Virus record (IMG/VR): IMGVR_UViG_3300009149_009119 | Coordinates: 1 to 21,093 of that record | Reading direction: 5' to 3' (one strand) | Source of the DNA: a virus | Length of the DNA stretch: 21,093 nt | Shown: positions 837 to 18,603 of the stretch, piece by piece | Layout of the letters: the number at the start of each line of letters is the position of its first letter | How positions within the stretch are numbered: the first letter of the stretch is position 1 | Made by a program: the position numbers and the translations under genes | The notes under the pieces: generated by a model | Seen by the model: the letters and a program-made list of their open reading frames with translations, nothing else | What the model was told of the DNA's origin: nothing | Databases searched by the model: none

Positions 837-1040
837 TTACGGCTGGAAAAATTTCTCCATCACTTCCAGTTTGTCCCGGTATTCTGCAATCTGTGCCACT
901 GCTCGTTCAATGGCTTCCATGATGTCTGAGTGATCATGGATGGCAGTGGGATTATTCAGCATGACTTCCACATTGATGCGATGTTTTTCAATATGTGCTT
1001 GATAGTGCATTTTGCTGGCTGTGATTAGTTGTTGTCTCAT
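837..1040 (-). CDS. 67-aa conserved-looking phage protein of unknown function
   Basis: A small protein that is largely helical and charged, with the segment HIEKHRINVEVMLNNPTAIHDHSDIMEAIE followed by a predicted coiled helix to the end (stated as residues 15-44; key residues are the His-rich HDHSD centre). It resembles small proteins recalled from marine T4-like phages, but no function is known to me. The ATG at 1040 has an AGGA ribosome site about 8 nt upstream and lies 11 nt after the folE stop. It is bracketed by two copies of the folE 3' end, which suggests that it arrived as a cassette or that the junction was rearranged. Codon use does not differ obviously from its neighbours. Confidence 0.7.
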   Translation of the reverse strand: MRQQLITASKMHYQAHIEKHRINVEVMLNNPTAIHDHSDIMEAIERAVAQIAEYRDKLEVMEKFFQP

Positions 1041-1051
1041 TTCGATTTTCC

Positions 1052-1786
1052 TTATCTAGGTGCAAAATCCTGTTGTAGTTTGATGTTGTCAAAGAACTCT
1101 TTCTTGGTGCCGGCATCGTCTCGGAACGCACCTTTCAGCACCGTTGTCTGTGTTAGGCTGCTGTGTGCCATGATGCCGCGGTTGGTGCAGCAACCATGTT
1201 CCGCCTGCACATACACACCTACATCTTGAGATTCGGTCACCTTCATGATCTCTCGGGCGATGTCGTTACAGAGTTCTTCCTGCAGTGTGCCTCTGCGGCT
1301 ACACCACTGTGCGATTCGAGTGTATTTGCTGAGACCGATTAGTTTTTCTGCGGCCAGAATACCAATGTAGGCCACGCCTGCAACAGGTTGGTGATGGTGG
1401 CTGCACATGCTGCGCAGTTCACTGCGCACAACCAACATGCCCTCATAGCGGTCCTCGCTGTTGTTAGGAAATGCTGTGCAATCGGGGGCTGGATCATATC
1501 TACCTCCCATGATTTCGTTGTAGTACATCTTGGCCAAACGTCGTGCCGTACCCTTGGAATTGGGATCGGTTTCTCGATCGATCAAGAGTCGATCCAGCAC
1601 CAGTTCAAAGGCTTCGGTAGCTTCATCGATCAACACCGTTTTCATTTCTGGATACACATAGTCCGACACATTGTCTCCGGCCCAGAATCTCTTGCCCTGG
1701 GCTTTCATGTTTTGCCGGATGGTGTCGCTGAGATAGGTGCCTTTTGTGGGCACCGGGTTGGCATATTCGTTAAATTTTGCGATCAT
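1052..1786 (-). CDS. folE: GTP cyclohydrolase I (FolE)
   Basis: FolE converts GTP to 7,8-dihydroneopterin triphosphate, the first step to folate and to 7-deazaguanines (preQ0). At 244 aa the protein is slightly longer than the usual 180-220. Family motifs are clear: MCSHHHQP around 127-134 gives zinc ligands Cys128 and His131, GLSKYTRIAQWCSRR (151-165) is the substrate-pocket segment, and YVQAEHGCCTNRG (192-204) gives the second zinc Cys at 199. The ATG at 1786 has a GGAG site 5 nt away. It follows a short aminotransferase gene in the same array. In a phage also carrying a DpdA-like enzyme, FolE most likely feeds deazaguanine synthesis for DNA modification, although boosting the host's folate pool is possible. 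Its 3' end is duplicated downstream. Confidence 0.93.
   Translation of the reverse strand: MIAKFNEYANPVPTKGTYLSDTIRQNMKAQGKRFWAGDNVSDYVYPEMKTVLIDEATEAFELVLDRLLIDRETDPNSKGTARRLAKMYYNEIMGGRYDPAPDCTAFPNNSEDRYEGMLVVRSELRSMCSHHHQPVAGVAYIGILAAEKLIGLSKYTRIAQWCSRRGTLQEELCNDIAREIMKVTESQDVGVYVQAEHGCCTNRGIMAHSSLTQTTVLKGAFRDDAGTKKEFFDNIKLQQDFAPR
1053..1089 (-). repeat. 37-bp imperfect direct repeat, copy 2 (genuine folE 3' end)
   Basis: This is the in-gene copy of the repeat at 793-829, 260 bp away in the same orientation. It covers the last codons and stop of folE. The pair flanks the 67-aa gene, as seen when an element inserts at the end of a gene and rebuilds the reading frame, or after recombination between related genomes. 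Confidence 0.75.
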
Positions 1787-1812
1787 GATATCTCCGAGTT
1801 AGTGGTGGTGGA

Positions 1813-2421
1813 TCACCTTTGTGCCGTGATCTGGATCTGTCTTAGATCTGGATAAGCATGATATTTAGGCCCATCATTCACTGTGGGCAGCAATTCTAAG
1901 GCTCTTTCTGCTTCTTCGATAGTGGGGCGATAGTGATAGCCCACACGGAAAACCTGTTGATCCTGCCAGGGTGCAATCGCAAGATCTCTGCCGTCTGATC
2001 GCTGTGTGATCATGACATCATAGGCATCGGCATCATCTAACAGTATAGCACCACCGCGGCCTATCTGTAAAGGTTTAGAATGTCCAAAACTCAGGCACTG
2101 CATCTGTCCGGGTCGATACATGTTTTTTTCTAGTCTACGAGCCGAATCCCAGATCCTGGTGCCCACAAACTGATATTCTCCAATCCAACGTTGCCAGGCA
2201 TGGTCATGATAGTGGTACTGGATGCCTAACTTGTGCATGGTCATAGGCACCGAAAGATAGGTGTAGGGAGTGAATGAGCACTCTGTGACGCCGTCGTGCC
2301 TGAGGCACAGTTCTATGGCATGGGTGCAGCAGTCAGTCATGATCGCATAGGGAGCCGCGGTGAATGCTGCCAGAGCCTGCTCGAACCGCAGTATCTTATC
2401 GAACATACCAGGCCCAGGCAT
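1813..2421 (-). CDS. Short DegT/DnrJ/EryC1/StrS-type aminotransferase
   Basis: PLP-dependent sugar aminotransferases of this family add an amino group to keto-sugar nucleotides. The motif SFGHSKPLQIGRGG (111-124) contains the expected PLP lysine, Lys116. IWDSARRL (90-97) supplies the Asp that pairs with the cofactor ring nitrogen, and GYHYRPT (161-167) matches the family's GxxxR region. The protein is 202 aa against the usual 360-400, and most of the C-terminal domain is missing. The end looks natural, so it may be a compact phage form or a decayed copy. The start overlaps the upstream epimerase by 26 nt. ATG 2421 has AGGAG 10 nt upstream; ATG 2406 is an alternative. With the epimerase, glycosyltransferases and acetyltransferase nearby it suggests synthesis of an amino sugar. 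Confidence 0.75.
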   Translation of the reverse strand: MPGPGMFDKILRFEQALAAFTAAPYAIMTDCCTHAIELCLRHDGVTECSFTPYTYLSVPMTMHKLGIQYHYHDHAWQRWIGEYQFVGTRIWDSARRLEKNMYRPGQMQCLSFGHSKPLQIGRGGAILLDDADAYDVMITQRSDGRDLAIAPWQDQQVFRVGYHYRPTIEEAERALELLPTVNDGPKYHAYPDLRQIQITAQR

Positions 2422-3360
2422 GCTGCATGATCTCCTGGGTGTTGTGGCGTGGGACCCAACCTGTGATCAGATTGAATCGCTCACTGCTGGCAGTGAGCAC
2501 CGCAGGATCACCCTCGCGCCTGGTGCCCTGAGTGCAGCGCAGACTACGACCAGTGATGGTCTCGGCAATGGACATGATGTCACGATTGCTGGCGCCCACT
2601 GCAGTGCCCAGATTGTATATACCTGCAGGAACCACGTCGTACATGGCCATGTGGTGTGCCATCGCTATGTCCTCCACATGCACATAGTCTCGCACACAAG
2701 TGCCATCTGCGGTGTCATAGTCTGCACCATTCAGCGTGAACTCGCGATCATCGCGGAGACTTTCTAGCACACGCGCCATGATGTGCGTGGCCCCAGGTGC
2801 TTGGCCATGCCGGCCCGCACTGTCGGCACCGCAGGCATTGAAATATCGGAACGCCACGTAGTCTAGTGCATAGGCTCTGCGATAGGCAGCCAGCATGAAC
2901 TCTGTCATGAGCTTGCTTTCGCCGTAAGGGCTCACAGGCAGGGCCGGATCAGATTCTGCACAAGGGGTCAGCACTGGTTCGCCATACACTGCTGCTGAAC
3001 TGGAGAAGATCACACGACAGTGAGGCAACATGCCATGGCCGCGCATGAAATCCAGCATGCCCTTGGTGCCTACAAAGTTGTTTTGATAGTATGTGGCAGG
3101 ATCATCCACACTGGGACCCACCAGGCTGGTTCCTGCACAGTGCACCACTGCACAGGGTCTTTCCGCCACCAAAACTGCCAGTCCCGGCTCGCTGGCAAAG
3201 TCTGCCTGGATGAGTAGTCAGCCACGCCTTCAAGATGCTGTGGCACAGGCTCACGATCTATGCCAATCACACGATGTCCGGCATCTTTCAGGGCAAGCAT
3301 GGTCTGGCCGCCGATGTAGCCTGCGGCTCCTGTGACCACTGCAGTTTTTGGAGCGCTCAT
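2396..3360 (-). CDS. galE: UDP-glucose 4-epimerase-like SDR enzyme, interrupted by a frameshift
   Basis: GalE-type enzymes interconvert UDP-glucose and UDP-galactose, or their N-acetyl forms, using NAD. The N-terminal part from ATG 3360 has the NAD loop TGAAGYIG (10-17). In another frame, ending at 2396, follow FSSSAAVYG, the catalytic SPYGESK (Tyr and Lys), FRYFNACGAD and GTCVRDYVHVEDIA. Both halves together cover the whole family in order. The switch lies at about 3200-3213: the first frame runs on as nonsense-like sequence, while the second gives ADFASEPGLAVLVAERP without a gap. One missing base in the segment read as TCATCCAGGCAGA would explain it. The start overlaps the glycosyltransferase stop (ATGA). 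The gene is either broken, or the break is a sequencing error. Confidence 0.85.
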
Positions 3361-4541
3361 TGATACTTGGCCGGCGCTACGTGATCGCGATAACGAGCAC
3401 CCGAACGGTTCCACTCACCGCCCTGTCCTGTCATAATGTCCACGATGCGATCCACTGTGCCGTCGTTCCAGTCTGATATAGAGCCCATACGGTGATGTGG
3501 CCCATGCAACAGGCGATGTAGTTTGGCGACAGCATCATCCAGGCTCCAGGGCACATACAGCCGATCCGGATCATTGGCAAAGGTCTCAGGAAAGCTGCGA
3601 TAAGCAGGGTATAAAACGTTGCAGCCCAGGGTGTCAGCCTCACTTACTGTGTTTGACACCCAGTCCTGCAGCGCACAGTTGAACAGCACACGAGTGTCGT
3701 TCAACAGTGCGTAGTAATCATTCTTGTTGAGATCGGCATAGATCCGTAGTCGTCCTTGCTGTTGCAGTGCCTGAGCACGCTGAACATAATCTGCATTGTT
3801 GGATCTCAATGGCGCACCAGAGAACACTGCAAACTCCACCTCAGGATTGGTGGCCTGCACACGTTCTGCCAGATCCATGAAGAATCCCGGCTGCTTCTCC
3901 TGATCAAATCTAGCAGCAAAAGCCACACGTATTTTGCGATCACTGAATGGCCGTATGTTCGCAGCACCACCGATGCGTTCTTGTACTTCTGCCTTGCCAA
4001 ACGCCAGGCCCGAGATGTTGTAGATGGGAGCTGACCAGCCCGCGATACGCATGTGTGCCACCATCTCTTCGTTGGTGGCCAGCACAGTGATACCGGGCAT
4101 GAGATTCACCATGCGTTCAAACGCACTCATCCAACCCGCCATGCCCCACACATGCACAAAATCATCGGGGTCGATGGCCTGTGCAAGACAGCGAACAAAG
4201 ATCCTGGGGCGGAGATTGTGAGGAACCTGGTCCATGACGTAGGCCAGGCTTTCAATGCCCGGAGCAAACATGTCTTCGAAATACACCACATCCTCGGCCG
4301 TGACCTCTCCTTGCTGCATCAGCCGCACCAGATTCATGATCTGGCTCATGGCAAAGTAGCTTCGACCATGCGCATCCAAGACTTGGCCCACGGAAATCTT
4401 TTCGCTGTTGTCCAGGGTGAGTCCGGGCACATACACCACGTCTAGTCCGCGGCGCTCGAACACGCGCCGGTTCCATTCTGTCAGCTGCAGAGTGTAACGA
4501 GCTTGGTAACTCTCAAGTCCCATGTAGAATAATTTACGCAT
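3357..4541 (-). CDS. GT4-type (GT-B) glycosyltransferase
   Basis: A 394-aa protein starting MRKLFYMGLESYQARYTLQL. The C-terminal half has the typical GT-B nucleotide-sugar domain: VAFAARFDQEKQP, then a Rossmann-like half with SGAP and NKNDYYALLNDTRV, and SEADTLGCNVLYPAYRSFPE, the family's donor-binding region. The start at 4541 was chosen because it overlaps the stop of the previous gene (TGATG). A longer frame to 4679 runs entirely through that gene. The gene precedes galE and the DegT-like gene with ATGA coupling, so together they look like a sugar-nucleotide and transfer module. The acceptor could be phage DNA, a virion protein or the host envelope; the sequence does not tell. Confidence 0.8.
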   Translation of the reverse strand: MRKLFYMGLESYQARYTLQLTEWNRRVFERRGLDVVYVPGLTLDNSEKISVGQVLDAHGRSYFAMSQIMNLVRLMQQGEVTAEDVVYFEDMFAPGIESLAYVMDQVPHNLRPRIFVRCLAQAIDPDDFVHVWGMAGWMSAFERMVNLMPGITVLATNEEMVAHMRIAGWSAPIYNISGLAFGKAEVQERIGGAANIRPFSDRKIRVAFAARFDQEKQPGFFMDLAERVQATNPEVEFAVFSGAPLRSNNADYVQRAQALQQQGRLRIYADLNKNDYYALLNDTRVLFNCALQDWVSNTVSEADTLGCNVLYPAYRSFPETFANDPDRLYVPWSLDDAVAKLHRLLHGPHHRMGSISDWNDGTVDRIVDIMTGQGGEWNRSGARYRDHVAPAKYQ

Positions 4542-4753
4542 CAGCGGCTCCGGCGGCTGTCTAGATGCCACATATCCTTGGCGAACTTGCCCTGCAGGTG
4601 CTTGTTGAATTGTTGGTAAGCGTATGACCGCCAGTTGTAGAGATCCGCTTCGTTGAAGCGATAGCCAAAGTCCTGGCAAAAGGTCTGGAACTGTTCTAGA
4701 TCATCAAAGATCGCAGTGACTCGAGGGTTGGGTTTGAACAGGGGCTTGCCCAT
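4541..4753 (-). CDS. 70-aa phage protein of unknown function
   Basis: A small soluble protein without membrane segments. The core FQTFCQDFGYRFNEADLYN and the following WRSYAYQQFNKHLQGK are rich in aromatic and basic residues. It resembles short proteins I recall next to glycosyltransferase genes in marine T4-like phages, but I know no function. ATG 4753 has an AGGA ribosome site 7 nt upstream. The stop overlaps the glycosyltransferase ATG as TGATG, which indicates translational coupling. Confidence 0.7.
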   Translation of the reverse strand: MGKPLFKPNPRVTAIFDDLEQFQTFCQDFGYRFNEADLYNWRSYAYQQFNKHLQGKFAKDMWHLDSRRSR

Positions 4754-4765
4754 GTCGCTGTCCTT

Positions 4766-5281
4766 TTAGATGTTGACGGAAAGGTTAGGTCGGTGAGTTT
4801 CATACTTGATGAGGCAACCGTTCTCACCATCTTCGGCCACCTCGATCCACACAGCACGACCGGGATACCGATCTGCTATCTGTATATATAGGTCGTCAGC
4901 GATCATCTCGCAACTTTTGTAATCTAGTTGGAGCGTGGGGGCTGATGCCAGTCCAGCGGGATGGTTATGATCGGAAACGGTCCGATCACGCAAGACATCG
5001 GATCCTCCGGTCTTGGTATACAACGACAGGAGCCACCGCTTGAACTGGATGAACTCGATGTCCCTGTCGTTGTGGAACACATCGATCCACACCCGGAAAT
5101 GGAAGATATGGCGATGAGGATAACCAAGGAACGAAACATCATAGTGATCTCCGGTGGCCAATGACGGATCTGTTAAAGCGGCAGGATACTTATGTATGCC
5201 TTCTTTTTGGAACGTGACCCAGATCTTGCGATCCGCTGCGGCCATGATGCGGTCTACAGTTGCTCTTTGGTCTTGATTCAT
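4766..5281 (-). CDS. T-fold (QueD / 6-pyruvoyl-tetrahydropterin synthase)-like protein
   Basis: A 171-aa protein whose layout matches the T-fold pterin enzymes. His30 in FQKEGIH and the HxH pair His56/His58 in YPHRHIFHF could be the three zinc ligands. They are followed by a strand ending in IEF (75-77), where the family has its Asp-Phe segment, then SCEMIADDL (123-131) like the PTSENLA helix, and a final VAEDGENG (148-155) with the substrate-anchoring Glu position. The usual catalytic Cys of the CxxxHGH motif is not visible, so activity may differ from true QueD. It overlaps nth by 4 nt. With folE and dpdA in the same operon, a pterin or deazaguanine role is a reasonable inference. A function outside that pathway cannot be excluded. 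Confidence 0.5.
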   Translation of the reverse strand: MNQDQRATVDRIMAAADRKIWVTFQKEGIHKYPAALTDPSLATGDHYDVSFLGYPHRHIFHFRVWIDVFHNDRDIEFIQFKRWLLSLYTKTGGSDVLRDRTVSDHNHPAGLASAPTLQLDYKSCEMIADDLYIQIADRYPGRAVWIEVAEDGENGCLIKYETHRPNLSVNI

Positions 5282-5922
5282 ACAGAGTCCTTTTCGTGAT
5301 AGAAGTCACACACATCTGCAAGCATACACTGATCGCAGTCAGGATTGCGAGCCCGGCACACATATTTTCCGTGCTGGATCAACCATTCGTGAGCACCCCA
5401 GCGGTATTGGTCCGGTGTGTCGCGTTCCAGCACTTCTGCAGTCTGGTGTTCAGCTCGGGTGGCAGCTATGCCCAATCGGTTGCACAATCGATGCACATGG
5501 GTGTCCACTGCGATGGCAGGCTCCAGGAACACGAATCTCATCATGATGTCTGTACTTTTACGGCCCACGCCGGCCAACTGCATCAGCGCGGCACGATCAT
5601 TGGGTACTGCACCATCATGCCTGTCCAGTAACTGCTGACTCATCAGGCGGAGATGCCGGGCCTTGCGGTTATACATACCGGCTGGTCGGATCAAGGTCTT
5701 GAGCTGTTCCAGATCCAGGGCCAGTATCTCATCTGGAGTGGTGGCCACTGCAAACAGATTCTCGCAGGCCTGAGCAGTGCGTTCGTCCAGAGTCTGCGCG
5801 CTCAAGGTCACACCCACCAGGCTCTGGAAAGCATCCGCATAGATCTTTTCGGCAGGCACACGATTTGGCTCCGGATCCCGGGTGTGGAAGCGCTGGTACA
5901 TCACAACAATTTTGTCTGTCAT
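5278..5922 (-). CDS. nth: Endonuclease III (DNA glycosylase/AP lyase)
   Basis: Nth removes oxidised pyrimidines and cuts the abasic site. The 214-aa protein is full length. SAQT (41-44), the helix-hairpin-helix LAGVGRKS (116-123) with the catalytic Lys122, and AVDTHVHRLCNRLG (138-151) with catalytic Asp140 are present. The 4Fe-4S cluster ligands are Cys189, Cys196, Cys199 and Cys205 in the standard C-x6-C-x2-C-x5-C spacing. All key residues are intact, so it should be active. It lies between the MutH-like nuclease and the T-fold gene. ATG 5922 has a GAGG ribosome site. Its role may be repair of phage DNA or breakdown of host DNA. Confidence 0.92.
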   Translation of the reverse strand: MTDKIVVMYQRFHTRDPEPNRVPAEKIYADAFQSLVGVTLSAQTLDERTAQACENLFAVATTPDEILALDLEQLKTLIRPAGMYNRKARHLRLMSQQLLDRHDGAVPNDRAALMQLAGVGRKSTDIMMRFVFLEPAIAVDTHVHRLCNRLGIAATRAEHQTAEVLERDTPDQYRWGAHEWLIQHGKYVCRARNPDCDQCMLADVCDFYHEKDSV

Positions 5923-5956
5923 TGCGACCTCGCACTGCTTGCCCTATCAGGCAAAT

Positions 5957-6520
5957 TCAAAAAAGTCCAAAGGTGGAGCATGCCATGCGCTCCAGTTTCT
6001 CATAGGCACCTGCATTGATCCTGAAAGTAAAACTGCTGGCACCGCAGATTCTTTCCCAGTATCCGTACTCTGTGCCATACACATAGACCGGCAACACGGA
6101 GTTGGGTGCAGCCATGCAGCGCTGGATTTCTGCACGCCCATGTTCATAGGCCTGCTCGATCAGGTGCTGGATGTGCTCCGGACTGAAGTCATACACTCCG
6201 GCATCCACTATGACCTGGTCCTGGGTGAACACTCGCAGCTGCTGCTGGAACTTGTCAAAAATCACAGAATCTCGATAGGCAGTGTTGCACACCTGCTGGG
6301 GCGTCATGTTGCTGATATTCTGTGGACTGGTGGCGCCGAGATCGCGGCTTTTGAGCTCCAGGCCCAGCACCAAGATATCGCAGCCGGCACCGCGATTTAT
6401 GCGGATGCCCATGCCTTCGATGAGGTCTTCAATGAATCGGCCTGCATGACCATGCTGGTTGGTGGGCACAGCCTGGCCTATGAGGCTGTGACAGAGACCC
6501 GTGATGCTGACGTGATTCAT
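5957..6520 (-). CDS. MutH/Sau3AI-like endonuclease of the PD-(D/E)XK fold
   Basis: A 187-aa protein. The N-terminal half holds GHAGRFIEDLI with Glu31, then Asp48 in GCDILVLGLELKS and the catalytic pair Glu55 and Lys57. The spacing Asp-x6-Glu-Leu-Lys and the text DxxxLGxELK closely follow MutH (D-x6-ELK) and Sau3AI, which act at GATC. The rest of the protein is not recognised. The start overlaps the upstream gene by ATGA. Within a deazaguanine-modification operon it might cut unmodified host DNA or serve mismatch repair. The GATC link is an inference from family likeness only. A different PD-(D/E)XK nuclease remains possible. Confidence 0.6.
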   Translation of the reverse strand: MNHVSITGLCHSLIGQAVPTNQHGHAGRFIEDLIEGMGIRINRGAGCDILVLGLELKSRDLGATSPQNISNMTPQQVCNTAYRDSVIFDKFQQQLRVFTQDQVIVDAGVYDFSPEHIQHLIEQAYEHGRAEIQRCMAAPNSVLPVYVYGTEYGYWERICGASSFTFRINAGAYEKLERMACSTFGLF

Positions 6521-7043
6521 GTGATCACCTGATCTTGTTCGTAGTCACTCCAGTCTGTGAATCTGTTGCGTGGCATGAGATCTCGCAGTTCGTGCACCCA
6601 CACACCAGGATTGGTGGCAGCAAAATCTCGATCATCGATTTTTACACAGGTGTTGTAGTTCCAGAGTCGGGTGTAGGGTATGGCGACCTTGATGATGGGT
6701 ATGAATCTGTCACGTTCACAGAGACCACCGTCATGGAACTCCTCCACATAGCGCATGGGAATGTCCAGGCTGCACCAGAAACCACGATCCAGATAGGTCT
6801 GGATCACGTTTTCCAAGCAGTGTGTTCGTCTGGTGTGCAGGGACGGTAGCTGTCGTTGGCACCAAAAAAGATGTGCTTGATTGGTTCTGGCTGATCGTGT
6901 AAGTTTGTTTGATACAGCATTTTGTCAATCCTGTCCTGAACATGATAACCGATCACAAACAGGGTCTTCATGCCATGGGCAGGGGTGTGTTCAACTTCTA
7001 CCCCAGAGAAGAATCCGGCGTGTGGGTGTCCTGTCCTATGCAT
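6517..7043 (-). CDS. Conserved T4-like marine phage protein, interrupted by a frameshift
   Basis: Two frames make up one protein of about 176 aa. The first, from ATG 7043 (GGAG site 8 nt upstream), gives HAGFFSGVEVEHTPAHGMKT, then HIFFGANDSYRP, and stops after DEHTAWKT. The second continues ENVIQTYLDRGFWCSLDIP, then KIDDRDFAATNPGVWVHELR and FTDWSDY. One missing G in the run read as CTTGGAAAACG, near 6810-6817, restores TAWENVIQ. The combined text resembles a conserved cyanophage protein that I recall but cannot assign a function. The second half has no ATG of its own, only TTG. It overlaps the MutH-like gene by 4 nt. Confidence 0.75.
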
Positions 7044-7088
7044 GGTATGTGCTCCAGGGTGACTGTCGTTGGCGGCGATGATGTAGGG

Positions 7089-8687
7089 TCATATGCTCTG
7101 CTCCAGGGTGTCCAGCTTGGCCTGATCCAGTTCAGGTTCTGCCTCACTGTCGGGTTCAAAATCAAAATGCACATTGAACTGGCTGTGCGCGTTCACAGCT
7201 CGTCGGCCGGTGTATCCTCTGGTGCCCACGATGCGTTCCCACACTTTAGCATGATCATCGATGATGGCCAATGATTTCGAACGATTGCGTGCAGCAAACA
7301 CTGCATTGATGATCTTGCGAGCATCAAAATTGGCATCGTTGGGATGCAGCATCATGTCTGGTGCCACACCAGCATCATAGGCACGATTGGCACGCTGCAC
7401 TGCTTCTATGTGCATCCACACGTTGTGTCCCATCAGCAAGGCATAGGAGAACGAATCCCAGGAGGTGCGACCGATCTTGTCAATCTTGTTGAGATCTGGC
7501 ACCACATGATAGTGGTCGGGATTGGCAAAATCAAAAGGTGTGCTGCCCAGTTCTGCATCGGTTCTTCGCACGCCGTCTCGGTACACACAGATGTCCCGGA
7601 TTTCGAGTCGGCCGGAGATTGGGCTGTCTTCAAATGCTGGATGGATGCCGTCCTGTATCACAGCATCTCGGAAGGCACGATGATCAGTGGCATAGTGTTT
7701 GTGGTCTGCGGTGGCTGCCATCTGATATGACCACTTGGATCGATGATCTGTGAGGATGCTGTGATACAGTTGTCCATTGGCCGTGGCCAGGAACGGTGAT
7801 GCACAGTCAAAACTCATGGTGAACCGAGGGTTGGCATACTGTCGCACAGCGCGCTGTATGTCAGTGAGCAGCACTGCCCATTCCAGTCGTGAGGTACCCA
7901 GGAAGTGCATCCAGTCATGCACACCAGGCTCCAAGAGTCCATCGTGTATGAGATGCACCAGGCGTCGCAACACCAGATGCACATCGCACATGTTCTGTCC
8001 GCCCATGCCCCAGCCATTGAAGTGACGATCTGGATAACGCTGAGGATCACAGTAGTGTTTCATGGCGTCGTACCAGCGATCCGCTTCACTGTGGCTGCCG
8101 CCCTGCAGCACATTGAGGATTTTGGTTTCGCCATAGCGATTGGCGATCCAGAATTCGTTGTTGTACTGTGTGGCGCTGACAGCGTCTTCATAGGAGAATA
8201 TGCCGCAGGCAGCCGCGGCCACAGGATCGCGGAAGGTCCAGGTGGGTATGTCCATGGTCATGCCATGGGTGGCAATGCCCATCTGCCATTTCAACACCTT
8301 CTCGCGCTGGGCTTCTGCTTTGCGATCAGTGAAGTCTGCCCAGCGTCCGGGCCACACACCCTTGGCTATCTGGAAACCGCCTGAGTCCGCCAGCATCACG
8401 GTGTTGGCATCACGGTTTCTGACCATGTCTTCTTTGGCATCCGGTTTCGCAAGATCCAGATTGGCATGTCCTGCTGAGTACAGGCTCCAGCGATAGGGGA
8501 ACAGACCCCGCTGTGGATTCAGCCAGTTCAGGGCCTCCATGTCAGGCATGGCAGCCGGCATGCGGTTCTTGGGCACATACTCGGTGCTGCGTTGACGTCC
8601 TATGTAGGATGCATAGAACGAACTGATAGCCGGCAGGAATATGGCATAGTCTTGCTGACTTTGAGTAAGATCGTGTTGCTCAATCAT
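7089..8687 (-). CDS. dpdA: DpdA-like DNA guanine transglycosylase (TGT superfamily)
   Basis: A 532-aa TGT-fold enzyme. Compared with tRNA-guanine transglycosylase it shows MLADSGGFQ (98-106) with the base-binding Asp101, NVLQGG (192-197), GWGMGGQ (225-231) and SFDCASPFLATANG (292-305), with Asp294 in the place of the nucleophilic Asp of FDCVxPTR. It is longer than bacterial Tgt (about 375 aa), and the motifs are diverged as in DpdA, which swaps G for a deazaguanine in DNA. It is probably the key enzyme of a phage DNA-modification system, with FolE and the T-fold protein downstream. The ATG overlaps the sulfotransferase stop (ATGA). A tRNA-acting TGT is the alternative and is less likely given length and context. 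Confidence 0.8.
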   Translation of the reverse strand: MIEQHDLTQSQQDYAIFLPAISSFYASYIGRQRSTEYVPKNRMPAAMPDMEALNWLNPQRGLFPYRWSLYSAGHANLDLAKPDAKEDMVRNRDANTVMLADSGGFQIAKGVWPGRWADFTDRKAEAQREKVLKWQMGIATHGMTMDIPTWTFRDPVAAAACGIFSYEDAVSATQYNNEFWIANRYGETKILNVLQGGSHSEADRWYDAMKHYCDPQRYPDRHFNGWGMGGQNMCDVHLVLRRLVHLIHDGLLEPGVHDWMHFLGTSRLEWAVLLTDIQRAVRQYANPRFTMSFDCASPFLATANGQLYHSILTDHRSKWSYQMAATADHKHYATDHRAFRDAVIQDGIHPAFEDSPISGRLEIRDICVYRDGVRRTDAELGSTPFDFANPDHYHVVPDLNKIDKIGRTSWDSFSYALLMGHNVWMHIEAVQRANRAYDAGVAPDMMLHPNDANFDARKIINAVFAARNRSKSLAIIDDHAKVWERIVGTRGYTGRRAVNAHSQFNVHFDFEPDSEAEPELDQAKLDTLEQSI

Positions 8688-9355
8688 GTCTGCATCGAGG
8701 ATAGCAATAGATAATCATCTGAATAATGTCTACGTAATCTTTCCTGTAATTCCGGACGTTGTGTTAATCGTTCGCGGAAAAAATTTTGCAGTAGTGCATT
8801 GTCATCGTTGGCAGATCCCTGATTGCGATCCAACCCTGTTGCTGGTGTCCAGCCAAGGTACTGCTGTATTTTTTGATCAAACTCATGGTCTAGCATGAAA
8901 TATTTGTGCGGAACTTCGGGAAGTATATCTTTGATGATTTCATGCTGAGGCCATACATGATCATCAAATCTACTGATCACATCAAAAAACAATCTTTCTG
9001 TTACATCTGTGTACTGATCGATAAATGTCCTGGCATCCATACCATAATCATACTTGGTACATAATTCACCGGGAAATATCGGACCATTGGGACCATGCAC
9101 ACTTAGGATATAGGAGTTTATGTATTGTGCGATACCACTGATCCATCGTTCGATAGGATCTCTCAGGATCACGATTATCTCCGTGATTGTATCGCTGTGA
9201 TTTTCAGCCAAGGCCGCGTGCCATCCATGCCGCCGACTCCAATCCAGAAGAAAGCTACTGGCATTTTTTGGCACATTGATGATGAAACGATCACGTGTGG
9301 GATTGAGCACTCCTGATCCATGACCAAATCCACGTCCTTGCAGTGCTGATATCAC
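8684..9355 (-). CDS. Sulfotransferase-family protein
   Basis: A 223-aa protein with the PAPS-binding pattern of small sulfotransferases. RFIINVPKNASS (23-34) matches the 5'-phosphosulfate loop, VILRDPIERWISG (62-74) matches the 3'-phosphate loop, and HVWPQHEII (133-141) matches the family's later conserved block. It would move a sulfate to an alcohol or amine of an unknown acceptor. The start is GTG 9355, overlapping the gp45 stop (GTGA), and the end overlaps dpdA (ATGA). The gene is clearly AT-richer than both neighbours, so it appears to be a recent insertion that keeps the coupling. The acceptor may be a sugar, a virion protein or a modified base; none is shown. Confidence 0.7.
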   Translation of the reverse strand: MISALQGRGFGHGSGVLNPTRDRFIINVPKNASSFLLDWSRRHGWHAALAENHSDTITEIIVILRDPIERWISGIAQYINSYILSVHGPNGPIFPGELCTKYDYGMDARTFIDQYTDVTERLFFDVISRFDDHVWPQHEIIKDILPEVPHKYFMLDHEFDQKIQQYLGWTPATGLDRNQGSANDDNALLQNFFRERLTQRPELQERLRRHYSDDYLLLSSMQT

Positions 9356-10083
9356 TTGCTTTGTGCAGGCAGGATGTAGTTGTATTCCGCGATGCCCGAG
9401 TTCACTGTGATCTGGGCAGCGCCGTCGTCGGAGATGCGCACAGTCTTGTCACCGGTGAGATCCAGGATGGATATAACCTGTTTGATCGGCCAGGTCCAGG
9501 CCCGCTTGAGTTCGCCCGTGATGCCAGGATGGAACACGAATTCACCTGCGTGTGTGCTGTGATCACCGAACATGAACTTGAGATCGCCGGCATCGGTCTT
9601 GGTCTGGAAGTTGGACTCTTCTGCGTTGGCCTGTGCCTGCATTTTGAGCCGCTGGATGCCGGCCACAGTGGGTTCAAACTCGATGTGCCAGTTAGCTCCA
9701 CGGAACCGGGCAGTTTTCAGTTTCTCTGCCACGATCTCTGCGGTCATGAACCTGTAGTCGTTGCGGAAATCTGCTGCTGCGTTCTGGAAGTGCAGGCCTA
9801 CTGGTGTGGGTTCGCCGTTGCGATCCTGGCGCCGCACCGTGATGTGGGCATTCTCTCGATATTCCTGCAGGTTCAGCAGGATCTTGAGTTTGGTCAAGTT
9901 AGGCATACCAAAGGTGCCGATCCAGTCTGCCACAGGCGCCAGGAAGCGCCCCTGCACCACCACGGATCGATCTTCAGCGATGCCATCGATGACAGTTTCT
10001 CGGTCAGTGCCGGTGATTTTCACCAGATCAATACAGCCCAGGTCATGTGTGTGTTCCACAAGGTCCAGCAAATAGTCTCTCAT
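9352..10083 (-). CDS. 45: T4-like sliding clamp (gp45)
   Basis: A clamp of about 243 aa that holds the DNA polymerase on DNA and, in T4, also activates late transcription. The N-terminal MRDYLLDLVEHTHDLGCIDL and the following VKITGTDRET, the middle IGTFGMPNLTKLKILLN and the final VNSGIAEYNYILPA match T4-like gp45 proteins. The start is placed at ATG 10083, because GGAG stands 6 nt upstream; a frame to 10095 would include that ribosome site. It lies downstream of gp43 and the methyltransferase gene and has a candidate promoter in front. The clamp loader genes (gp44, gp62) are not in the window. Confidence 0.85.
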   Translation of the reverse strand: MRDYLLDLVEHTHDLGCIDLVKITGTDRETVIDGIAEDRSVVVQGRFLAPVADWIGTFGMPNLTKLKILLNLQEYRENAHITVRRQDRNGEPTPVGLHFQNAAADFRNDYRFMTAEIVAEKLKTARFRGANWHIEFEPTVAGIQRLKMQAQANAEESNFQTKTDAGDLKFMFGDHSTHAGEFVFHPGITGELKRAWTWPIKQVISILDLTGDKTVRISDDGAAQITVNSGIAEYNYILPAQSK

Positions 10084-10106
10084 CAGTTTCTCCATTGGTT
10101 GATACT

Positions 10107-10135
10107 ACTATATAGATCGTTTTAGTGATTTGCAA
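10107..10135 (-). promoter_or_regulatory. Candidate sigma70-type promoter before gp45
   Basis: On the minus strand TTGCAA (10130-10135) and TATAGT (10107-10112) are separated by exactly 17 nt. The -10 box matches the consensus in 5 of 6 bases and the -35 in 4 of 6. The -35 region overlaps the start of the intergenic space after the methyltransferase stop (10122-10124). It would give gp45, the sulfotransferase, dpdA and the genes downstream early expression by the host polymerase. Confidence 0.5.
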
Positions 10136-11066
10136 CAATTTTGGCCAGGCTCTGTCCACCACGCAGGCTGACAAGTTCACCGGGTCTGCGCATCTCCAAC
10201 CAGGTCACAGCATTGTCTATGTTCCAGCGCTGCTGGATCTCAAAACCCAGGCTTTCGGCCAGAGCAATCAGCATGGTGCCCGGCGTGTAACACATGAAGT
10301 TGCGTTCGGCCAAGTCCACACCGCCCCAGCGGTCGCAGTCATTGAATGTCAGGGCCAGCACTCCACCGGGCTTGAGTTTGCGATAGATGTCTGTGAGATA
10401 CAGACGGATCAGTTCAAACGGTTTGAACTCAAAAAAGTTCATGGCCAGGCAGAATCCAAACTGATGATCGGGCAGGTCACGCAGCACCAAGCCCTCACTG
10501 TCGCTTTCACGCAGCACATATCTTCTCAGCCGCCGCTGGTATTCCGGCGTGAACTGCTCAGTGGCTGTGTCCAACAGGCTGGATCGGATGTCCACGAGAT
10601 ACAGTGGATCACTGCCCACCAGCAAGGGCAGCCATTCGCCCTGGCCAGGTCTGATCACCATGCCTGCATGATGCCAGTCGCTGTGCAGACTGATGCGCGA
10701 TGTAAGGTAGTGCTTCACGGATTCGGTCAGCACAGGTCTACGATCCAGGATGTGCTGATCGGAATCACGCAGCATTTCTTCGCCATGCAGCTTGTAACTG
10801 GCCGCAAAATACCCAGGTTGCAGACCCTCGATCAGGCCCATGACGTCCTGCCGTGTGTCAAGGATGTGTTGACGGAAGGCTGCAATGGCTACATGCATGT
10901 GCTCACGATCCTGTGCGAGTTCGGCAATGCGTGCAGTTAGCCGGGGTTGACCTTCCAACACCACTCGGTTCAGTTCGCCCAGGACGTCATCGCAGATCCT
11001 GTCCGCATCCGGCAAGGATTCGGCGTCTAGGCAGTTAAGATAGCGTACCAATTCACGCAGTTTCAT
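10122..11066 (-). CDS. Methyltransferase-like protein (class I, SAM-dependent type)
   Basis: A 314-aa protein. The N-terminal third is mostly helical. The C-terminal two thirds look like a SAM-dependent fold: LPLLVGSDPLYLVD near residue 157 takes the motif I place but lacks the full GxGxG, LPDHQFGFCLAMNFFEF follows, and YRKLKPGGVLALTFND is the typical LKPGG block. The segment AERNFMCYTPG is well marked. I recall similar proteins in marine T4-like phages. The target is unknown. The start overlaps the gp43 stop (ATGA), so it is translated with the polymerase. The degenerate motif I leaves doubt about catalysis. Confidence 0.65.
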   Translation of the reverse strand: MKLRELVRYLNCLDAESLPDADRICDDVLGELNRVVLEGQPRLTARIAELAQDREHMHVAIAAFRQHILDTRQDVMGLIEGLQPGYFAASYKLHGEEMLRDSDQHILDRRPVLTESVKHYLTSRISLHSDWHHAGMVIRPGQGEWLPLLVGSDPLYLVDIRSSLLDTATEQFTPEYQRRLRRYVLRESDSEGLVLRDLPDHQFGFCLAMNFFEFKPFELIRLYLTDIYRKLKPGGVLALTFNDCDRWGGVDLAERNFMCYTPGTMLIALAESLGFEIQQRWNIDNAVTWLEMRRPGELVSLRGGQSLAKIVANH

Positions 11067-13723
11067 TGGAAATCAAAGAGATTCTGGAAGGTGTTTTCGG
11101 TGTTGGTGGCTGACACCAGATCCCAGTCCAGCACACTGAGCAGATTGTCGATCTTTTGGTCCACCACGGTGGCCTCCATTTCGGCATCTGCAAACGGCAG
11201 CTCACGGAACCACTGCGGCAGGTTCAGTTCGTCGGTGGGATAGGCGATGGAGGTCCAGCCCAGGGCATTGGGTCGGAGCTTGCACACGATGGCCTTCATG
11301 CCATCCACGATCTGCATGCTGTAGTTGTCGGAGTTCATGCGGCGCATGGTGTTCCAGTTCATGCCTGCACGCACATGACCCGGCATGTTGGCGCGGCCTT
11401 CGCGCTGTTCTTTTTTCATGTACAGCGTGAGATTGTTCACGCGCTTGGGGCTGCCCTTTTCCCAGCCCGGACGTTCTGCGAACGCATACTTGAATGTGCG
11501 GATCTTTTCGATCACGGCTTCGCGGTCAGTGCCAGTCAGCACGTCATCCAGGATCTCGCTCAGGAAGTCCTGGATGACCTTGGGAGTGTCTGATCGCTTG
11601 AGATCCAGGCCCATGGCCTTGACCTTGCCCGGGCGGCCGTTGATGTCCAGGCGCCGACCTTCTCGATCAAAGATCATGACAGCATAGCGTTTCTTGGTGA
11701 TAAACAGGCCTCGGCTGGCCACCACTTCTCGACCACCTCTGATGACCTCACCCATCTCGCGTGGCACATGGAAGGCTCGTTCCATGAAGCCAGGAAAGCT
11801 CTGATTGACCTGTTCCGCGATGCTGTCATAGAGCTGGATGCAGGTTTCTTTGCTCCAGGTCATGCGCCCCGCCTCCACTTCTTCACGCAGCACAGGCCAG
11901 GCTGAGAAAAAGCAACTGTCTGTGTCTCCGTAGATGATGGCATCACCCACATGATCGTACCGGCCAGTAATGCATTCGTTCACGTGAGCATCCATGTGCT
12001 GTGCAATGGCACGACCTGTGAGCGTGGTACTCTGTCCGATGCGCCGGTCAAAGAATCTGCAGCCAGGATTCAGTATGGCACCGTAGAGACTGTTCAGGTT
12101 GATCTTTTTCACCAACTGGCGCTTGTCCCAGTACTGTTCTTCCTGCGGCGTGGTGCACTGTTTGAGGCGGGCCTGCATGTCTTGGCGTTCTCTGTACCAG
12201 CGTTTGAGCAGGCCCGGGATCACGGCCTCGATCTCATAGGTGAATATGGTGCCGTTGGCGGAGATCATCCAGGGCTGATTTGAGTCAAAGATCATGTGCC
12301 ACACTTCCGCAGCGGAATGCACAGATTCTGCCCCATCTCGCCAGTCTATGGTGATCTCTGTGCCGCGTTGTTGTTCCATCACGGCTGTGTATTCCAGGGT
12401 GCCAAACAAGCCTTCCCAGGCCGCGGCGAAACTGCTGCCACTGCGCTGTCGATCCGCGATGTAGTGATCAGTCATGGTGGACCGGAGTTGGCCCATGATG
12501 GTCTCTGGTCCCATGTTCAGAGCGCGGATCGTGGCCGGATATAGACTGTTGATGTCAATGCTGCCAACCCAGTCGTGCATGCCTTTCTTGGGTGTGGCCA
12601 CATAGGCACCAGCGGCCTGGGTGGCGTCGTCTGTGAGGCGCTCTTGTCGCATCGGCACCACCATGCCACGTTCATGTGCTTCGTTGATGATGGCCTGCTC
12701 GGTCACAGCCACTGCACCCATGGTGGTGGGCAGCAGCACAGTGTTCTCATGGGCCAGGGTGTTGGCCAGATCCAGGAAGCGCAGTTTGCGATCAATGTCG
12801 GCCAGTCCACGCACATCTTGCCGGTTGTATTCGATGAAGGTCTTCCAGTTCTGATTGTAGAGCTGATCTAGCGTGCCTTCAAACCGGGTCTTGCTGCCCA
12901 GTTCTTCGTACTCCAGTATGGCATCCAGGCTGTATGAGTGGCGTTCTTCGTAGGTGTATTTCCTGTAGAGCTGCATGTAGTCTAGATGCACACGGCCTAC
13001 GAGATCGAACGTGATGTTTTCGGCGCCAAATCTCTCAAAGGTGCGCTGCTTGGGCATCTGATCCCAGAGACAGAATCTGCGCGTGTCATCCTTTGACAGC
13101 ACTCGAGTGGTGCGCTGTATGGTATAAGGAATATCATAGCCCTCGGAGTTCCAGCCCGACAGCACATCAGCATCCTGGATGAGATTTAGGAAGGTATCCA
13201 GCAGTTCCTGTTCTTCCCAGCACACAAAGGTATTGGGGAATTCGGCTGCAATCTCCTGGGCAGTGGCCTGTGTCATGTGTCGGGGCGGCCGCACCACGGT
13301 AACCAACTGATCCAACCACGCCAGATACACTGAGATCGCCGTGATGGCATTGAACGGATCTTCAGGCCGGCTGAATCCACGCTCTGGGTCAAAATCCACT
13401 TCAATGTCAAAGAATGCAGTGTGCAAGGCAGGAGCGTCCTGACCCTGGTAGTTTTCGGCCAGGCAACGGAATATGGGATTTATGTCGGCTTCATACAGAG
13501 TCTTGCCTTTGTGCATGGCCTGTTCTCGACGAAACTCTTTGGAGTTGCGTGTGGAGAATCTGGCCACTGGCGTGCCATGGATCGATCGGAACCGGCCTCT
13601 GGCATCGTCATAGTACAGCACATAGTTGGCAGGGTGCTCTTCAAAGTAGCGCTCACCGTCTCGGCGACCCACTATGTGTATGCGATCTCGATCTCGATCG
13701 AAGAGTGCGTCGATATATGACAA
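11063..13723 (-). CDS. 43: T4-like family B DNA polymerase (gp43)
   Basis: The replicative polymerase with 3'-5' exonuclease, 886 aa, complete. Exonuclease motifs are DIEVD (106-110, Asp106/Glu108), GWNSEGYDIPY (190-200, Asp197) and YNRQD (299-303, Asp303). Polymerase motif A is DINSLYP (390-396), motif B is KINLNSLYG (540-548) and motif C is YGDTDS (598-603). All catalytic residues are intact. The first codon is TTG at 13723 in MSYIDALFDRDRD, with AGGAG 7 nt upstream; no ATG fits the family start better. The stop overlaps the methyltransferase gene. How this polymerase handles deazaguanine-containing template is unknown. Confidence 0.97.
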   Translation of the reverse strand: MSYIDALFDRDRDRIHIVGRRDGERYFEEHPANYVLYYDDARGRFRSIHGTPVARFSTRNSKEFRREQAMHKGKTLYEADINPIFRCLAENYQGQDAPALHTAFFDIEVDFDPERGFSRPEDPFNAITAISVYLAWLDQLVTVVRPPRHMTQATAQEIAAEFPNTFVCWEEQELLDTFLNLIQDADVLSGWNSEGYDIPYTIQRTTRVLSKDDTRRFCLWDQMPKQRTFERFGAENITFDLVGRVHLDYMQLYRKYTYEERHSYSLDAILEYEELGSKTRFEGTLDQLYNQNWKTFIEYNRQDVRGLADIDRKLRFLDLANTLAHENTVLLPTTMGAVAVTEQAIINEAHERGMVVPMRQERLTDDATQAAGAYVATPKKGMHDWVGSIDINSLYPATIRALNMGPETIMGQLRSTMTDHYIADRQRSGSSFAAAWEGLFGTLEYTAVMEQQRGTEITIDWRDGAESVHSAAEVWHMIFDSNQPWMISANGTIFTYEIEAVIPGLLKRWYRERQDMQARLKQCTTPQEEQYWDKRQLVKKINLNSLYGAILNPGCRFFDRRIGQSTTLTGRAIAQHMDAHVNECITGRYDHVGDAIIYGDTDSCFFSAWPVLREEVEAGRMTWSKETCIQLYDSIAEQVNQSFPGFMERAFHVPREMGEVIRGGREVVASRGLFITKKRYAVMIFDREGRRLDINGRPGKVKAMGLDLKRSDTPKVIQDFLSEILDDVLTGTDREAVIEKIRTFKYAFAERPGWEKGSPKRVNNLTLYMKKEQREGRANMPGHVRAGMNWNTMRRMNSDNYSMQIVDGMKAIVCKLRPNALGWTSIAYPTDELNLPQWFRELPFADAEMEATVVDQKIDNLLSVLDWDLVSATNTENTFQNLFDFQ

Positions 13724-13824: not shown

Positions 13825-14371
13825 TTAACATGTTTTTTTGTAATGCGTATTTTCCTGGATGATATCTTTGATGATCAATGATTTGACCGCAGTTGAGGTT
13901 CCTTCGGCCACCGATACGTTGTTTATTATTATGGTTCCTGCACCTATCCAACAATAATTTTTAATTCGACTACTTCCACATACGGTTACTTGTCCGCTGA
14001 TAAAACTGCCTTGTCCAATTTCCGCCCCGTGTGCTATCAACGAATTGCTGTGGATTATCACATCACTTTGTATTAATGATTGTGCCAGGATAAACAAAAA
14101 TTCCGTCTTTGATATAAGTCTGTTCCGGAAGAACACTAAATCTATGTAATTGGGAATAATCCAGGTGTTGGCTAATTTGTTTTCTTAACGGAAATTTAGT
14201 CACTAGATTTATATAAAACACATCAGTATTTCCAGATGATGCCAAAAAATCATCTGGATTTTGTCTACACAGAGTTTTCCCCTGGGATAAAAGATAGAAT
14301 TCTAAATCTTTAAAAGTAAGACTGTCATATGATATTGCACAATAAGGGCCTTTTCCTATAACCTTAAACAT
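13825..14371 (-). CDS. Hexapeptide-repeat acetyltransferase (PglD/NeuD-like), interrupted by a frameshift
   Basis: These enzymes acetylate amino sugars. The first frame, from ATG 14371, has an N-terminal domain and reaches GIFVYPGTII before a stop at 14063. The second frame continues QSDVIIHSNSLIAHGAEIG and GSFISGQVTVCGSSRIKNYCWIGAGTIIINNVSVAEGT, with the six-residue left-handed beta-helix rhythm, to 13825. One extra base in the run read as ATCATTAATACAAAG, near 14070-14085, explains the shift. The gene is AT-rich like its upstream neighbour and unlike gp43. With the DegT-like aminotransferase it suggests an N-acetylated amino sugar. The break could be real or a sequencing error. Confidence 0.75.
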
Positions 14372-14409
14372 TTTCCAGTTCTACATCCTTGCGAAAATTT
14401 TGAAATAAT

Positions 14410-15381
14410 TTAATTGCACGATTCAAGTTTCAATATCTGATCAAATGGCATCCTGCATTTGCTGTGCCATGAGTCTGCCCAGGTTTTCATTATGTTTCTA
14501 TTGTGCAGTGCTTTTTGTTGCCAATCATCTAATATCTTCGTAGTGATATCTAAATTTATCAATCTTTGGGTCTCAGACAAAATGGCTTCCTGACGATTCA
14601 CACATGTTTTTGAGGTATCATATAGATCGTAACTGTGATCAACATAATCATCAAACACATCAAATCTCATATCTCTCAATCGTTGCACACATCCAGTGGC
14701 CGCAAACAACAACCAGGGTCTAGGAAGTTGTATAGCCCTCCACATTTTTTCAGAAAATACCTGGCAATCAGTTCTTTCAAAATAAGTTTCAACTATGATA
14801 CTAAATTTGGTAGACAAAATTATTTCACAAAGATTATCTTCATCAATGAAATTTTTGTAAGGAACTATTTGTTTTATATCCTCTTTGATGTTATCAAACG
14901 AAGAAAGAAATTCTTTATGCCAATAGTCAAATGTTTCCAAAGGATCATCACTGGGATACCAAAGACCTCGCCTTTGATGCATGTTAAAAGACACAAAGCT
15001 ATGATCTAACAATCCTCGTGAGTGCAACAGATAAAACCAAGATTGTCTAATTGGATCAGTACGATTTAAAAAACAGTTGAAATCTTTTTTGATCACCCCG
15101 TCGGTTGCTATCTTTGGTATGTAATAAGCACCATAAAAATCATTTGGTAAACTGTAAATTGATACATTGGGCCATTGATTGTTAATCGTGTGTTCAGAAA
15201 TCACGTAGACTCTTTTGTATCTTGAAGATATATCTCGGAGATGATCCAAGTTGGCTGCGTCCTCAAGATACACACTAATTACGGCGTCATTACTCAGTTT
15301 TTGATTAGCAGACTTGGCCCACTCATGTATGATACAAATAGAATTCACCCATTGTCCTCGCCAATCGGTTTCCGTGATCAA
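14410..15381 (-). CDS. Glycosyltransferase-like protein (possibly GT10/GT-B type)
   Basis: A 323-aa protein. The middle segment FNCFLNRTDPIRQSWFYLL and the C-terminal segment FSIIVETYFERTDCQVFSEKMWRAIQLPRPWLLFAATGC, followed by LRDMRFDVFDDYVDHSYD, resemble the donor-binding half of fucosyltransferase-like GT10 proteins, with the pattern E-x-x-F-s-E-K-x-W-r-a-i. The link is weak and based on memory of the family. The start is TTG 15381, which overlaps the dsbA stop (TTGA), so an ATG is lacking. The gene is AT-rich compared with ahcY and gp43 and forms a probable acquired pair with the acetyltransferase gene. The acceptor is unknown. Confidence 0.5.
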   Translation of the reverse strand: MITETDWRGQWVNSICIIHEWAKSANQKLSNDAVISVYLEDAANLDHLRDISSRYKRVYVISEHTINNQWPNVSIYSLPNDFYGAYYIPKIATDGVIKKDFNCFLNRTDPIRQSWFYLLHSRGLLDHSFVSFNMHQRRGLWYPSDDPLETFDYWHKEFLSSFDNIKEDIKQIVPYKNFIDEDNLCEIILSTKFSIIVETYFERTDCQVFSEKMWRAIQLPRPWLLFAATGCVQRLRDMRFDVFDDYVDHSYDLYDTSKTCVNRQEAILSETQRLINLDITTKILDDWQQKALHNRNIMKTWADSWHSKCRMPFDQILKLESCN

Positions 15382-16927: not shown

Positions 16928-17002
16928 AGTGGTATATATGCTCACTGAGTGCGCAAGGGTAGCGATTCCTGTGCACCGGGCAGCAGCCGCCCACACGCAA
17001 CC

Positions 17003-18520: not shown

Positions 18521-18542
18521 GACAATATTTAGTGTATCTAAG

Positions 18543-18572
18543 ATTGGCCGGTGCCAATGCAAATGCATTTGC
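18543..18572. repeat. Two adjacent palindromes between divergent genes
   Basis: ATTGGCCGGTGCCAAT (18543-18558) is a 6-bp stem with a 4-nt loop. GCAAATGCATTTGC (18559-18572) is a perfect 14-bp palindrome. Together they fill the 83-bp gap between the 93-aa gene (minus) and the homing endonuclease (plus). They could be operator sites, a bidirectional terminator or part of the homing site. Confidence 0.7.
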
Positions 18573-18578
18573 CACTAA

Positions 18579-18586
18579 CATAAATA
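18579..18586 (+). promoter_or_regulatory. Late-promoter-like motif before the homing endonuclease
   Basis: CATAAATA matches the T4 late consensus TATAAATA at 7 of 8 bases, 17 nt upstream of ATG 18604. Transcription would begin about at the AAGGAG site. The leader would be very short, so this is tentative. Confidence 0.35.
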
Positions 18587-18603
18587 CAAACAAGGAGATC
18601 ATA

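Follow-up and report, generated by a model that had tools for sequence, protein, structure and literature searches.

The DNA analysed here, called the window throughout, is the complete IMG/VR record IMGVR_UViG_3300009149_009119 (21,093 bp). It covers part of the genome of a tailed phage whose replisome is of the T4 type, and it carries part of a gene cluster, here all on the minus strand, that we predict to modify guanine in DNA (Table 1). In the direction of transcription, genes for an adenosylhomocysteinase, a family B DNA polymerase, a methyltransferase, the sliding clamp, a sulfotransferase-like protein and a protein resembling tRNA-guanine transglycosylase (TGT) are followed by a frameshift-split gene, two open reading frames (ORFs), one of them encoding endonuclease III, and genes for a T-fold protein, a small protein, a glycosyltransferase (GT), a galE-like epimerase, a DegT-like aminotransferase and FolE. 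A first-pass annotation had picked out the TGT-superfamily protein with its DSGGFQ and SFDCASPF motifs, FolE, a protein with an HxH pattern and the clamp, and the sequence confirms each of these, on the minus strand. Beyond what it had noted, the cluster includes the GT, the galE-like epimerase and the mini-DegT aminotransferase. The order polymerase-methyltransferase-clamp-DpdA-(9303-like)-T-fold-small protein-GT-galE-DegT-FolE-QueD is kept by relatives in dozens of viral contigs; together with the invariant residues and the modelled fold of the TGT-like protein described below, it marks the cluster as no product of chance.

Scans of the 532-amino acid TGT-like protein against Pfam, PHROG and NCBIfam gave no match, nor did a search of its profile against PDB sequences, and a fold search was therefore required. 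The AlphaFold model, built from 34 aligned sequences, has a pLDDT of 85.4 and a pTM of 0.84, and a PDB fold search with it returned 15 matches at E≤1e-3, each of them a tRNA-guanine transglycosylase. Judged by this model, the protein is an enzyme of the (beta/alpha)8 TGT fold with both catalytic aspartates: D101 in DSGGFQ (residues 101–106) and D294 in SFDCASPF (residues 292–299) are invariant among aligned relatives, together with the SGG and about 45 further columns. In the alignment with E. coli Tgt (MFDCVMPTRNARNGHLF versus SFDCASPFLATANGQLY), D294 falls on the FDC motif of that enzyme. The TGT zinc site, CxCxxC...H, is not conserved in the window family, C367 being the only cysteine invariant across all 20 aligned sequences.

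Profile-profile comparison ranked phage DpdA2 nearest to the family (E=3.5e-7), followed by E. coli Tgt (1.8e-3) and the DpdA1 of phage 9g (0.04). In control comparisons with hhalign, unrelated sets mostly gave E≥0.1, but a match to a sulfotransferase set at E=9.5e-4, spanning 26 columns, was spurious, so that values around 1e-3 are not evidence by themselves here. The first-pass annotation had proposed this comparison with the DpdA and Tgt families, and the grouping with tRNA-type Tgt that would have spoken against its reading was not seen. The window protein does not match phrog_10773, and hidden Markov models of the two families do not detect each other at E≤1; the profile ranking places the window family as a distant relative of DpdA2. 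As regards DpdA3/DpdA4, the genomes of CP220 (full) and HVTV-1 yielded no match to a related transglycosylase in searches made without the published accessions. The gene of the window protein lies between those of the clamp and FolE, and the protein's tail has a polymerase-like peptide of the clamp-binding kind; for these reasons we regard it as a probable DpdA that acts on DNA, and not as a Tgt of tRNA.

The window DpdA family occurs in at least 599 candidate stretches of IMG/VR viral contigs. Among named phages it is present in the PA5oct group, in Phosso (a Sinorhizobium phage) and in Vibrio phage 2.275. The gene has QueF, QueC, FolE and QueD nearby in Vibrio phage 2.275 and QueE in PA5oct, neighbourhoods that link the family with 7-deazaguanine. 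DpdA2 relatives were found in 379 IMG/VR stretches, with a T-fold/GT pair in 68 of the 80 examined. Outside phages, GT, T-fold protein and window-family DpdA are encoded together on Magnetospirillum contigs of up to 1.4 Mb. The same three genes were also seen in bacterial contigs of Methylobacterium and Rhodospirillaceae, where DpdA has no clamp peptide.

The first-pass annotation had suggested that QueE and QueC might lie outside the window or be supplied by the host, and of the two only QueE is borne out. QueE is encoded in all 27 related records tested, and QueD follows FolE in the gene order of relatives; both lie there just beyond what is the window's edge and are most likely missing from the window because the contig ends. 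For QueC, 22 IMG/VR relatives of up to 316 kb gave nothing more convincing than short, incomplete matches, and it was not found in the complete genomes of PA5oct, Phosso, ACP17, RHph_I1_18, phiST and BUCT-ZZ01; X1 has a single partial match below cut-off. Weak QueC-like matches (in three IMG/VR records, L004, L016 and L045, and in X1 and D479) covered only 59–106 positions and were not counted. Among the 80 DpdA2 loci, an independently collected set, 69 have the T-fold gene without QueC, four have QueC without the T-fold gene and none has both. Loci were picked by DpdA similarity, with no regard to the T-fold gene, the GT, QueC or the tail, and there is thus no circularity in the figures for co-occurrence; all counts refer to related sequences rather than independent events, and distinct-tail counts are given where possible.

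The T-fold protein itself had been read as QueD, which its sequence contradicts. The position of the QueD catalytic cysteine is leucine in 144 of 144 T-fold sequences and alignments show no conserved Asp-His of the QueD type, whereas the separate QueD genes of relatives keep both; the QueD assignment was rejected on these grounds. QueF was rejected as well, since its family, PF14489, was not found except in Vibrio 2.275. A search of the T-fold profile against PDB sequences returned chance matches only. The window gene is homologous to CGPG_00067 of Cellulophaga phage phiST (tblastn 6e-9), with the three-histidine site aligned, and CGPG_00067 adjoins QueD, QueE and FolE. A decarboxylase of 7-carboxy-7-deazaguanine (CDG), DpdL, was reportedly proposed by Cui et al. 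in 2023, within a dDG/dCDG pathway, in phages making 2'-deoxy-7-deazaguanine, and CGPG_00067 may be the published DpdL. The window T-fold protein thus resembles a putative CDG decarboxylase, and on the simplest reading it would consume CDG in place of QueC.

Relatives of the T-fold protein in archaea and Streptomyces adjoin QueD/QueE/FolE or QueD/FolE, and no transglycosylase was detected at these loci, as would fit an action on the free base. The relative in Streptomyces sp. NEAU-Y11, beside QueD and FolE, perhaps belongs to a 7-deazapurine natural-product cluster. In phages phiST, Ahp1, D479, Bakedbeans, MA9V-3 and RHph_I1_18 the T-fold gene is accompanied by FolE and QueE; none of the six gave a DpdA2-profile match, and phiST and RHph_I1_18, the two searched with the window-family profile, gave none with that either. 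The T-fold gene neighbours MazG in phiST and a deoxynucleoside monophosphate kinase in D479, a hint of a nucleotide-level route. In the Synechococcus phage BUCT-ZZ01 a xanthine-guanine phosphoribosyltransferase gene (3441–3902) lies between QueE and QueD.

The GT of the window matches PF00534 at E=4.6e-5, just short of the curated cut-off, which its X1 homologue passes (8e-12). Its linkage to the T-fold gene extends over five lineages of phages and to Magnetospirillum: the two genes adjoin in the PA5oct group, ACP17, Phosso, BUCT-ZZ01 and 68 DpdA2 loci, and are one gene apart in X1. Searched against 50,697 phage records, the window GT matches 12, all of which have both the T-fold gene and DpdA, and the ACP17 GT matches 20, 16 of them with the T-fold gene. 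A second GT is frequent in the DpdA2 clusters (41 loci), as is a galE-like gene (30 of 68). No member of the thymidylate-synthase/dCMP-hydroxymethylase family was found in ten of ten relatives or in ACP17, X1 and BUCT-ZZ01, so hydroxymethylcytosine or hydroxymethyluracil is an unlikely sugar acceptor in these phages. A GT serving hydroxymethyl-pyrimidines was set aside, as most carriers have no thymidylate-synthase-family gene. In Xanthomonas phage PhiXhv-15 the neighbours of a related GT are a GlmS-like aminotransferase and a GlcNAc-malate-type deacetylase; que genes are not annotated there, and the set may serve a different sugar modification.

In its disordered tail, the DpdA-like protein carries a motif, F-N-x-L-F-D, that resembles the peptide at the C terminus of the cognate DNA polymerase. 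The clamp-peptide pattern is present in 79 of 84 DpdA-like tails, compared with 10 of 466 other stretches of the same protein; this count used a broader pattern and a larger search interval than an earlier, narrower pattern, which gave 65 of 84. The DpdA and polymerase peptides change in step from lineage to lineage, for example TLDELFE/SLDDLFE in ACP17, SLEELFG/SLESLFG in X1, SLDSFFD/TLDDFFS in BUCT-ZZ01 and NNNDLFGW/NNTDLFDW in Vibrio 2.275. As the peptide was first noticed in the window family, it is best judged on these pairs and on the DpdA2 set, where it occurs in 69 of 78 tails (40 of 48 distinct) versus 57 of 2345 other ORFs. It was found in no FolE, QueD, QueE or T-fold protein of the DpdA2 loci, but it ends the second GT of the DpdA2 clusters in 40 of 41 cases (25 of 26 distinct). 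Chromosomal window-family members in Magnetospirillum lack it.

In phage T4 a pocket of the clamp receives the peptide SLDFLF of the polymerase (PMC12746103), the tails of gp43, gp55 and gp33 are interchangeable (PMC2988020), and the alpha-GT binds the clamp, gp45 (PMC13216743). By its match to such peptides, DpdA is probably held on the sliding clamp through its tail. The DpdA2 of Vibrio phage nt-1 lacks the peptide, and only about 0.1% of G is modified in nt-1 DNA (PMC6884629), a single case that is no more than suggestive of a connection between tail and modification level. We found no paper linking DpdA with the sliding clamp in the part of the literature covered.

We read the locus as a DNA hypermodification cluster for a QueC-independent, clamp-coupled 7-deazaguanine that is probably glycosylated, and give this reading a probability of roughly two in three. 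FolE, QueD and QueE, the last two encoded outside the contig, would make CDG, and with no QueC neither ADG nor preQ0 would be formed. The T-fold QueD paralogue, with its probable zinc site, would act on CDG, most simply by decarboxylation to 7-deazaguanine, with which the clamp-held DpdA-like transglycosylase would replace guanine in newly synthesised DNA; following the Tgt precedent, D294 would attack the nucleoside and D101 would serve as general acid/base. The GT, supplied by the galE and DegT sugar genes, would then most likely glycosylate the modified base. For the full sequence of events, in which a clamp-tethered transglycosylase installs 7-deazaguanine at the replication fork without QueC and GTs, some also clamp-tethered, complete a hypermodified purine that bears a sugar, we regard the chances as even. 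The TGT fold and catalytic residues, the gene set and its order, the lack of QueC and its exclusion by the T-fold gene, the GT linkage and the match of the clamp peptides are computational results, whereas DNA as the substrate, clamp binding, the reaction of the T-fold protein and glycosylation with its acceptor are inferred.

Several points weigh against this reading. Its profile links to TGT, DpdA2 and QueD are distant similarities, the T-fold assignment is sequence-based, and most relatives are fragments. Among the GTs the clamp peptide is confined to the second, DpdA2-type GT and does not occur in the window-type GT, and thymidylate-synthase-family proteins are present in PA5oct, Phosso and Vibrio 2.275. 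The acceptor of the GT would also be unexplained if the base were plain 7-deazaguanine, because this offers no obvious hydroxyl for an O-glycoside; a C-glycoside, a carboxylate or another handle would have to be considered.

In an alternative reading, the DNA would hold plain 7-deazaguanine or CDG, with the GT, galE and DegT genes serving, for example, virion or host-surface sugars. Accessory genes of the GT4 type are common in phages (Pfam, PHROG), and in phiST, MA9V-3 and others the T-fold gene occurs with FolE/QueE while tblastn detects no homologous GT. We nevertheless consider this unlikely, given the linkage of GT and T-fold genes across unrelated phage lineages and Magnetospirillum, the T-fold gene that accompanies nearly all GT homologues in the phage records, and the clamp peptide of the second GT, which points to DNA. 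The first-pass annotation is supported in its reading of a DNA-modification module within a replication operon, insofar as a TGT-superfamily, probably DNA-modifying enzyme occurs with FolE of the 7-deazaguanine pathway, but the preQ0-type base that it proposed, with QueC and QueE from the host or encoded elsewhere, now appears quite improbable. Hosts often encode QueC, and Vibrio phage 2.275 illustrates that the window DpdA family can accompany QueC and QueF; yet the relatives have their own QueE and no QueC, and the T-fold gene excludes QueC in the DpdA2 loci. The TGT fold and catalytic motifs would also suit an enzyme acting on phage or host tRNA, a reading to which we give very little weight in view of the clamp peptide, the location in a polymerase/clamp operon, the proximity to phage DpdA2 and the unconserved TGT zinc site.

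The DpdA2 of nt-1 (YP_008125322; phrog_10773; Hutinet et al. 2019, PMC6884629) is, like the window enzyme, a phage-encoded TGT-superfamily protein with FolE, QueD and QueE neighbours, and DpdA2 shares DSGG-Q and (F/Y)D motifs with the window family; in ACP17, X1 and BUCT-ZZ01 it too is accompanied by a T-fold protein and a GT. The nt-1 system differs in having QueC and no tail peptide, and the profile similarity of the two families reaches only the E-value given above. DpdA1 of phages 9g and CAjan is likewise a DNA-guanine transglycosylase, encoded in 9g beside clamp and polymerase, but shows only trace profile similarity to the window family (E 0.04–0.1); 9g uses Gat-QueC to give dG+ (PMC6884629). 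Phage phiST differs from the window in that searches found neither a homologous GT nor a gene of the window type or DpdA2. The glucosylation of hydroxymethylcytosine in T4 also employs a GT that acts on phage DNA and, for the alpha-GT, binds the sliding clamp (PMC13216743), but the predicted acceptor of the window cluster is a modified guanine, and most tested carriers have no hydroxymethylase-family gene. The bacterial dpd cluster (Thiaville et al. 2016) resembles the Magnetospirillum clusters as a chromosomal transglycosylase with que genes; the latter differ in their GT, T-fold protein and window-family DpdA.

If correct, the reading describes a new kind of DNA armour, with a bearing on phage escape from restriction and CRISPR, and the clamp peptide gives a concrete answer to how DpdA would meet its DNA substrate. 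We know of no sugar-decorated guanine reported in DNA so far. The cluster is widespread and largely unannotated, its DpdA, T-fold and GT genes being mostly listed as hypothetical in annotated phage records, and its presence in the cultured phages PA5oct and Paride (Pseudomonas), ACP17 (Acidovorax), BUCT-ZZ01, X1 and Phosso makes the reading testable.

Table 1. Features of the 21,093-bp window, in order of position
Feature	Position	Strand	Basis or remark
FolE, GTP cyclohydrolase I	1052..1786	-	244 aa; PF01227 E=8.6e-39
Short DegT/PseC-like aminotransferase	1813..2421	-	weak match, E=6e-5; about 200 aa in relatives
galE-like NDP-sugar epimerase	2396..3414	-	TIGR01179 E=5.8e-73; frameshift-split ORFs 3070-3414 and 2396-3172
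GT4-type glycosyltransferase	3357..4541	-	start ATG at 4541 (MRKLFYMGLES...); PF00534
Small conserved protein between T-fold gene and GT	4541..4753	-	70 aa; 63 loci; stop overlaps GT start
T-fold protein (QueD paralogue, DpdL-like), HxH	4766..5281	-	retains His triad H30/H56/H58; Leu at the position of the QueD catalytic Cys
Endonuclease III (Nth)	5278-5922	-	Fe-S motif
9303-like conserved protein	6517..7043	-	split by one-base frameshift at ~6812
DpdA-like DNA-guanine transglycosylase (predicted), new family	7089..8687	-	532 aa; fold and catalytic motifs
Putative clamp-interacting peptide QFNVHFDF of DpdA-like protein	7158..7181	-	residues 503-510; disordered tail, pLDDT<50
Nucleophile D294 of DpdA-like protein (by analogy)	7806-7808	-	in SFDC
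Catalytic D101 of DpdA-like protein	8385-8387	-	in DSGGFQ
Sulfotransferase-like protein	8684-9355	-	weak Pfam match
Sliding clamp	9352..10095	-	homology to Phosso clamp
SAM-dependent methyltransferase, between polymerase and clamp	10122..11066	-	kept in 81 loci
Family B DNA polymerase	11063..13723	-	family-library match; conservation in relatives
Putative C-terminal clamp-interacting peptide TFQNLFDFQ of DNA polymerase	11066..11092	-	T4 precedent
Low-GC island	13825-15381		~35% GC
Adenosylhomocysteinase	15647-16996	-	complete; TIGR00936 E=6e-180
ORF with repeated WNKG motifs	18532-19170	+	resembles GIY-YIG homing endonuclease

The clamp of the window had no match in NCBIfam, the sole family library tried for it, and was identified by its similarity to the gene annotated as sliding clamp in phage Phosso (phmmer 5.6e-40). 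Frameshifts interrupt two window genes, the 9303-like one at ~6812, where TGGAAAAC replaces the TGGGAAAAY of relatives, and the galE-like gene at ~3100; the contig may hold sequencing errors, because nearly all relatives have the former, and most the latter, as a single ORF. The 9303-like protein is confined to records of the PA5oct group and ACP17, with the cluster present in 13 of 13, and its structure model, which is confident (pLDDT 87), gave no PDB fold match at E≤1e-3.

Some genes of the window have few counterparts in the related loci. Endonuclease III lies within the cluster and occurs in no other related locus, the sulfotransferase-like protein between clamp and DpdA occurs in 12, and adenosylhomocysteinase in only five; the last may recycle S-adenosylhomocysteine for the conserved S-adenosylmethionine (SAM)-dependent methyltransferase. 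The low-GC island, which holds hexapeptide-transferase-like and uncharacterised genes, is probably a recent acquisition, and the ORF with WNKG repeats lies on the strand opposite to the cluster.

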